Of a stretch of 64,000 nucleotides of DNA, positions 47,457 to 50,068 are shown in pieces. Each line of letters starts with the position of its first letter. The stretch's first letter is position 1. The notes below the pieces were generated by a model. That model worked only from the letters and a program-made list of their open reading frames with translations. It did no database searches and was not told the DNA's origin. Origin of the DNA: Methylocaldum szegediense (GTDB lineage: Bacteria > Pseudomonadota > Gammaproteobacteria > Methylococcales > Methylococcaceae); assembly GCF_949769195.1 (NCBI RefSeq), contig NZ_OX458333.1, forward strand, positions 2,914,001-2,978,000, written 5' to 3'. Made by a program: the position numbers and the translations under genes.

Positions 47457-48323
47457 TCAAGCTTCCAATAAACAATTTCGCAGCTTTTTCATGGCGGTAT
47501 TTTCTAACTGGCGAATCCTTTCAGCAGACACTTGGTAGCGCATTGCGAGATCGTGAAGGGTCAGTTTTTCCTCGCTCAGCCAACGACTCCTGACGATATC
47601 CCGGCTGCGTTCGTCCAGCTTCTCGATGGCGGCCGCCAATTGCTGCTGCTTGTGCTGACCCCAATCGTTAGCTTCAAGCAAATCCGCCGGATCGGCATTT
47701 TCCTGCTGAAGGTAATGAATGGGGGCTGGCGCTTCTCGATCATCGCTCTCGGCATCGCTGGCCTCGAAGGCAACATCCTGGTTGTTTAGACGATTTTCCA
47801 TTTCATAAACCGTCGCGACATCGACGCCCAGTTCGTCGGCAAGGACATTAGCCTCGTCACGGCTCAACCATCCCAAGCGGTTCTTGAACTTGCGCAAATT
47901 GAAGAACAATTTGCGCTGAGCTTTAGTGGTCGCGACTTTAACGATGCGCCAGTTTTGAATAATGAACTCATGAATTTCCGCCTTGATCCAATGGACCGCA
48001 AAGGAAACCAGCCGGACGCCGACCGCCGGGTCATAGCGTTTCACGGCTTTCATGAGGCCGATGTTTCCTTCCTGGATCAAATCGGGGAGCGGCAAACCGT
48101 AGCCGAGATAACCCCGCGCAATGTGGACAACGAAGCGTAGATTGCCGAGTACTAGCTGTCGTGCCGCCTCGAGATCGTTATGCTCGCGAAAGCGTAAGGC
48201 CAATGCACGTTCTTCCTCGGCACTATAGCGCGGCAGCGCGTTTACGGCCGCGACATAGTCTTCGATGGAGCCGAGCGAGAGATTAACCGGAAGCGTTAAT
48301 GCGTTGCTCATAAGTTTCCTCAA
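47457..48323 (-). CDS. rpoH: Heat-shock sigma factor sigma-32
   Basis: The 288-residue protein carries region 2 ([38 protein letters not shown]), the RpoH box ([17 protein letters not shown]) and region 4 ([25 protein letters not shown]). It directs RNA polymerase to heat-shock promoters. It is the last gene after ftsE-ftsX, as in E. coli. A near-perfect CIRCE element lies 22 bases upstream of the start codon, suggesting repression by HrcA. Confidence 0.97.
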
Positions 48324-48344: not shown

Positions 48345-48371
48345 TTAGCACTCAACAATAACGACTGCTAA
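48345..48371 (-). promoter_or_regulatory. CIRCE-like operator (HrcA binding site) upstream of rpoH
   Basis: TTAGCACTC (48345-48353), nine bases, then GACTGCTAA (48363-48371). The CIRCE consensus is TTAGCACTC-N9-GAGTGCTAA, so there is one mismatch in 18 and the spacer is exact. It lies between the ftsX stop and the rpoH start, where the rpoH-proximal promoter should be. HrcA itself is not encoded in the window. Confidence 0.8.
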
Positions 48372-48397
48372 TAGTTAAAGTTAGAAAATTTGCGCAA

Positions 48398-49405
48398 TCA
48401 AGTAGGATCGAGCTCCCGTAAATGATAAGTGACGACTATCCATGCCCCGATAACCCCTAGTAAGACCGATACTCCAATTAGGAGTTCGGTCTCCGCAAGC
48501 CCGAGAAACGAGAGCGTGAAAGGACTTCCATAGAGTTCGGCCAAACGTCGGGAAGGCCCACGCAAAAACAACAGGAAAAAGCTGACGATAAGCCAGGCGA
48601 GCGTTCCGCCCAAAAAGCCATACCAGAAACCGGCATATAGAAAAGGACGGCGGATGAAGCGGTCGGTTGCGCCGATGAGCTTCGCGACGACGATTTCGTC
48701 GCGGCGATTTTGCAATTCTAGACGGATCGTATTCCCGACGATGAAGAGTACGCCAAGGCTTAAGAGCACGCTGAACACGATAACGGTGCGCTGGGCTATC
48801 GTTAACAGGGAGTGCAGCTTGTGCATCCACTCAGTGTCGAGCTGGACGAAATCGGTTTCCGGCAGTGCTTGAAGCTCGCCCAATAATTTCTCTACCTCTT
48901 CGGGACGAGTCAGAGAGTCCTTCGGCTTGATACTGACAACCACCGGAAGTGGGTTGAAATCAAGGGCCTGCAGAGCGTCGCCAAAACCGCTGTAGCTCTT
49001 GAGTTCCTGTAAACCCGCTTCTTTGGTGATCAGCTCTGCCGCCTCGATCTGCGGGTGCTTTTTGAGCGCTTCGGCGAGTTTGCTGCCCGTATCGTTGGAC
49101 AGCTCGGGTTTCAGGAACAACGACACCTGATTAGTGGCCTCTAGGGTTGAACTAGCCTGCCGGACATTCTTGATAAAGACGTGGAAACTTGCCGGTATCG
49201 TCAGGGCTATGGCGATCACCAGCACCGTCATGATGCTAGCGACTGGCGTTCGACGAAGACGGACAAAACTCGATTTAAGGGTGTCGACGTGCAAATCGGC
49301 GTAAGCGCGCAGCCGTTTTCCTGGGCCGTTGCGGGTACGTCTGAGGCGAACCGCATTCGGTTCTCGCTTTCTGCGAGGCGTCTGCTTGTTTCTTACGATC
49401 GGCAC
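48398..49405 (-). CDS. ftsX: Cell-division protein FtsX
   Basis: The protein is 335 residues, starting at a GTG three bases after ftsE. It has a cytoplasmic basic N-terminus, membrane helix 1 ([23 protein letters not shown]), a periplasmic loop (about 85-190), and three more helices near the C-terminus ([41 protein letters not shown] is the conserved FtsX core). With FtsE it controls amidase activators at the division septum. Confidence 0.96.
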
Positions 49406-49408
49406 GTT

Positions 49409-50068
49409 TCAGCCGCCTTCGACCAATCGGCCTTGGTGTAATTTAAGATTTCGGCAGGCGAACCTAGAAATCAGATCAAGATTGTGGCTCGCGATCAAGA
49501 GCGTTACGCCGACCTGGTTGAATTCTCGGAATAACTCCATGATTTCGGCCGACAGCTCTGGGTCCAAGTTTCCGGTGGGCTCGTCAGCCAGGATCAGGGA
49601 GGGTTTGTGTACGATGGCCCGTGCGATCCCAACCCGCTGCTGCTCCCCGCCGGACAGCGCTAAAGGGTATCGCTTTTCTTTGCGGAGCAAGCCGACCTTA
49701 TCGAGTGCGGCTCTGACGCGCCGGGCTGTTTCCTGCTGGCCGTAGCCGGCTATTTGCAAAGGCAGAGCCACGTTATCAAAAACCGTTCTATCGTGCAGCA
49801 AGCGATAATCCTGGAAAATCAGCCCCAATTTTCGGCGTAGATAAGGCACCTGTCGCTTGGGTAAATGATTTATGGGCTTTCCCTCGAAAAGAACTTGTCC
49901 GCGGGTAGGTCTTTCGATCAGGGGAATCAGTTTGAGCATGGTGCTCTTGCCGGCTCCGGAGTGACCAGTCAAGAAGGCCATTTCGCCTTGTTCCAGCCGG
50001 AAACTGATGTTCGACAGAACCTCTCCACTATCCAAATAACGCTTGCTGACGTTGATGAATTGCAGCAT
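49409..50068 (-). CDS. ftsE: Cell-division ATP-binding protein FtsE
   Basis: This 219-residue ABC ATPase has Walker [15 protein letters not shown]-loop LIFQDYRLL, signature [16 protein letters not shown], and Walker [16 protein letters not shown]. It drives FtsX. The ftsY gene that precedes ftsE in E. coli is absent; upstream is nearly 1 kb with only a relic. Confidence 0.97.

Follow-up and report, generated by a model that had tools for sequence, protein, structure and literature searches.

The analysed window, a 64-kb stretch (64,000 nucleotides) of the Methylocaldum szegediense chromosome, carries on its minus strand rpoH, the gene for sigma-32 (47457–48311; 284 amino acids; TIGR02392, 398 bits against a cut-off of 323), preceded on the same strand by ftsE (49409–50068; TIGR02673, 288 bits) and ftsX (48398–49405; TIGR00439, 357 bits). 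The RpoH protein is 91% identical to that of Methylocaldum sp. 14B and 95% identical to that of a MAG labelled Methyloversatilis. Its ATG start (48309–48311; MSNALTLPV...) is conserved in relatives and follows GAGGAAA, a Shine–Dalgarno-like element read from the sequence (48315–48321, minus strand) whose GAGGA is kept in all three congeners. Between ftsX and rpoH, at 48345–48371, lies a CIRCE element, the operator of the repressor HrcA, with the sequence TTAGCACTC-N9-GACTGCTAA (the full 27-base dyad, in window letters, being TTAGCACTCAACAATAACGACTGCTAA); read on the rpoH strand, it is TTAGCAGTC-N9-GAGTGCTAA and is conserved in place in relatives. The site agrees with the consensus TTAGCACTC-N9-GAGTGCTAA at 17 of 18 positions and has the exact 9-base spacer, just as an earlier note on this DNA had described its sequence, coordinates and spacing. 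That note had also placed the operator 22 bases from the rpoH start, a gap that runs to an upstream TTG at 48323; because the start at 48311 is the one conserved in relatives, the gap from CIRCE to the gene is 33 bases.

No other stretch of the window came within three mismatches of CIRCE, and shuffled sequences led us to expect a mean of 0.02 such sites per window. Read on the rpoH strand, the mismatch (lower case in TTAGCAgTC) falls in the arm farther from the gene, at a position where 99% of 147 aligned rpoH CIRCEs have C. All three congeners carry a perfect dyad at rpoH, from which the window copy differs by one base, and a search of GTDB contigs for its exact 27-mer returned no matches.

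The 4.9-Mb genome encodes one complete HrcA with both of its domains, DNA-binding and C-terminal (PF01628, PF03444; TIGR00331, 329 bits), and the gene order is hrcA-grpE-dnaK-dnaJ. A whole-genome search allowing up to three mismatches revealed four CIRCE sites, at groES1 (no mismatches), rpoH (one), hrcA (one) and groES2 (two), all adjoining heat-shock genes, with no site elsewhere. The reversed pattern gave two matches in the whole genome at the same loose cut-off, so specificity rests on the sites with zero or one mismatch and on the heat-shock location of all four. At the hrcA-grpE-dnaK-dnaJ locus (L145, G000:C1:3449000-3456200), the CIRCE with one change lies 5' of hrcA, and dnaK has no separate CIRCE. 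The second groES locus (L004) and its equivalents in two congeners (G005 and G007) all carry a CIRCE with an identical changed arm (GGCTGCTAA), which hints that a weaker site has been conserved.

Comparisons within the family and class linked the operator to the presence of its repressor. In the family, hrcA was found in 37 of 38 genomes and a full rpoH match in 35 of 38; CIRCE was directly upstream of rpoH, 29–41 bases off, in all 33 of these 35 genes for which it could be placed from the listings, including those of the three congeners. Of 80 named rpoH loci retrieved through sequence similarity, 76 had a CIRCE with up to three mismatches, leaving four exceptions. A class sample of one genome per family, drawn from a GTDB class that includes the beta-proteobacteria (as seen from the named loci of the wider group), showed CIRCE at this threshold upstream of rpoH in 55 of 58 genomes with hrcA (three exceptions) versus 3 of 22 without (Fisher P 1.8e-12, kinship ignored). 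On the RpoH tree, which is poorly resolved with only three starred branches, hrcA needs at least 13 changes, and independent well-supported contrasts agreed with co-loss in 2.7 of 3 cases on average, a number too small for the sign test to reach significance. These counts indicate that HrcA stands above sigma-32 in most families of the class that keep hrcA, and that hrcA-less lineages lost or never had the link. On this sampling, CIRCE at rpoH is an old arrangement, common to most gamma- and beta-proteobacteria with HrcA.

Alignment of 147 rpoH regions on CIRCE, with no motif assumed, showed that the most frequent letters from −16 through −10 before the operator spell GGAACTT. Information in the CIRCE spacer was left-sided only (T at 9 and A at 11, from 58 sequences across the class), the mirrored places carrying little. 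The resulting GGAACTT-N16-TC(T/A)nA, with a −10 (TCnAA) that uses CIRCE's own TC, would by its resemblance to the consensus be a sigma-E-type promoter like P3 of E. coli rpoH, which sigma-E recognises and which has GGAACTT (review PMC8103513). Such a putative GGAACTT-N16-TCnAA promoter lies in front of rpoH in most relatives with hrcA; unlike that of P3, its −10 lies inside the HrcA operator, and the window's own genus is without it. A scan detected a strong GGAACTT-type match in 86 of 148 rpoH regions, 75 of them 14–17 bases before CIRCE, compared with none in 146 windows further upstream and 1.8 expected from shuffles. To the right of CIRCE, nAT followed in 115 of 146 regions, completing TGCTAA(A/T)AT, a sigma-70-type extended −10 that was present at only 1 of 14 true groES or hrcA control sites in the family (a set that leaves out L088 and L101, both of which are rpoH sites). 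An independent test, in which 369 genomes were searched for GGAACTT-N8-10 followed by a perfect CIRCE, yielded 28 matches, one per genome, and none for the reversed pattern. All 28 were followed by rpoH, 20 of them in genomes unused before, showing that the composite element is specific to rpoH. A phylum-wide scan of 60 genomes, mostly of other classes, contained no exact GGAACTT-CIRCE.

On balance, we favour a reading of these patterns in which the rpoH control region of most hrcA-bearing gamma- and beta-proteobacteria is one interlocked element, where a putative sigma-E promoter builds its −10 from CIRCE's left arm and spacer, a sigma-70-like extended −10 (TGCTAAAAT) takes up the right arm, and HrcA gates both. 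If true, full induction of sigma-32 would require both HrcA release, through cytoplasmic unfolded protein, and sigma-E activity, through envelope stress, a testable wiring in which the two kinds of stress sensing meet on rpoH. No published account of this interlocking was found, which, given incomplete coverage of the literature, is weak evidence of novelty.

Methylocaldum would depart from this design. Both the TGCTAAAAT element and the sigma-E-type element are missing upstream of the window rpoH, where the best match to GGAACTT-N15-17-TCnAA was 5 of 7 plus 3 of 4, off the conserved place, and a sigma-70 promoter scan of the ftsX–rpoH intergenic region detected none at threshold. The congeners have TTGAT(T/C)-N18-TACTAT ending on the first base of CIRCE, resembling the family groES layout, in which TTGACA...TATGAT runs into CIRCE. 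The window version is weaker: a sigma-70-like candidate, TTGATT-N19-AACTAT (48371–48401, minus strand), proposed from consensus resemblance, with a −10 that overlaps the first CIRCE base. The adjoining promoter is clear in relatives and a weak candidate in the window species. As part of the composite reading, the genus would have given up the interlocked design, its −10 now abutting CIRCE as at groES. A sigma-E or sigma-32 promoter was also considered for the genus and rejected for want of a convincing match; the genome has two sigma-E-like factors, the proteins above the cut-off of the RpoE profile TIGR02939 (L227 and L228).

With one hrcA and four heat-shock CIRCE sites in the genome, HrcA repression of rpoH is the best reading, and 48345–48371 is very probably a working operator that represses rpoH transcription at normal temperature. 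HrcA, made from hrcA-grpE-dnaK-dnaJ on the same chromosome, would bind the 27-bp dyad beside the promoter of rpoH, blocking RNA polymerase. Heat or unfolded protein would draw GroEL off, and HrcA activity would be lost; GroEL-dependent relief of HrcA is established in Bacillus and others. Derepression would be joint, at hrcA-dnaK, both groES loci and rpoH, and the rise in sigma-32 would then increase the wider heat-shock regulon, a predicted feed-forward in which GroE, DnaK and sigma-32 are released at once. For this species, we infer HrcA binding, repression, GroEL-dependent relief and the exact promoter. The hierarchy that the earlier note had proposed, with HrcA above sigma-32, is well supported as a prediction: hrcA, on whose presence the note had made its proposal depend, exists as one complete copy, further CIRCE sites were found at hrcA, groES1 and groES2, and the operator is conserved in relatives and tracks hrcA across families. 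Repression might be weak here, as a 99%-conserved base is changed and no confident promoter is recognisable.

The changed base raises the alternative that this species has an operator in decay, with HrcA binding poorly and rpoH controlled mainly post-transcriptionally or from promoters upstream in ftsEX. The perfect rpoH sites of the three congeners, a single change in the genome's hrcA CIRCE as well and the missing sigma-E-type and TGCTAAAAT elements are consistent with decay; we nevertheless consider it unlikely, because the site keeps 17 of 18 positions, an intact spacer and one intact arm, and across the family groES, hrcA and rpoH often have sites with one or two changes. The inverted repeat could instead work as RNA, as its arms pair within the predicted 5' region, giving a hairpin that could tune rpoH mRNA stability or heat-dependent translation, and E. 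coli rpoH is controlled by mRNA structure. However, the region folds no better than shuffled sequence (z −0.32) and has no match in Rfam, the arm letters are fixed and do not covary, the dyad is lost together with hrcA, and in most relatives a −10-like element after the dyad would put the start of that transcript beyond it, making this explanation highly improbable. The one arm base that is off would also fit a chance resemblance to CIRCE, but the low expectation per window and the conservation of position across genera and families, which already refutes it, leave this idea practically negligible.

HrcA usually controls groE or dnaK. E. coli, the usual model for sigma-32, is without hrcA, and HrcA and sigma-32 are therefore often presented as alternatives; E. 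coli was not among the control genomes with HrcA-family matches. Set against the classic system, in which HrcA and CIRCE control groE and hrcA-grpE-dnaK-dnaJ, the operator, repressor and chaperone targets are identical here, with the difference that the sigma-32 gene is added, so that a positive regulator joins the HrcA regulon. The main earlier survey of beta- and gamma-proteobacteria, by Permina and Gelfand in 2003, is the paper likeliest to list CIRCE at rpoH in this group. The rarity implied by the earlier note does not hold, as the arrangement is near-universal among the sampled hrcA-bearing gamma- and beta-proteobacteria. CIRCE at rpoH as such is already known and not unusual: Rodionov et al. 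(2004; PMC545781, table 8) listed it for Geobacter sulfurreducens, where a perfect CIRCE at −51 of rpoH accompanies sites at groESL and hrcA-grpE-dnaK-dnaJ, the same target set as in Methylocaldum; in contrast to that species, which belongs to another phylum, the Methylocaldum genome has two groES loci and one changed base in the rpoH CIRCE.

At L176 (G097) and L029, the CIRCE in front of rpoH has lost one base (TTGGCACTC-TTATTTGTT-GATGCTAA); G097 has no detectable hrcA, yet this deleted-base CIRCE remains at rpoH, apparently an operator caught in decay. Extra rpoH-like copies are present in L210 (G063) and G108, the second G063 copy being without CIRCE, and at G094:C39:148762-152840 a distance of about 3 kb separates hrcA from rpoH.
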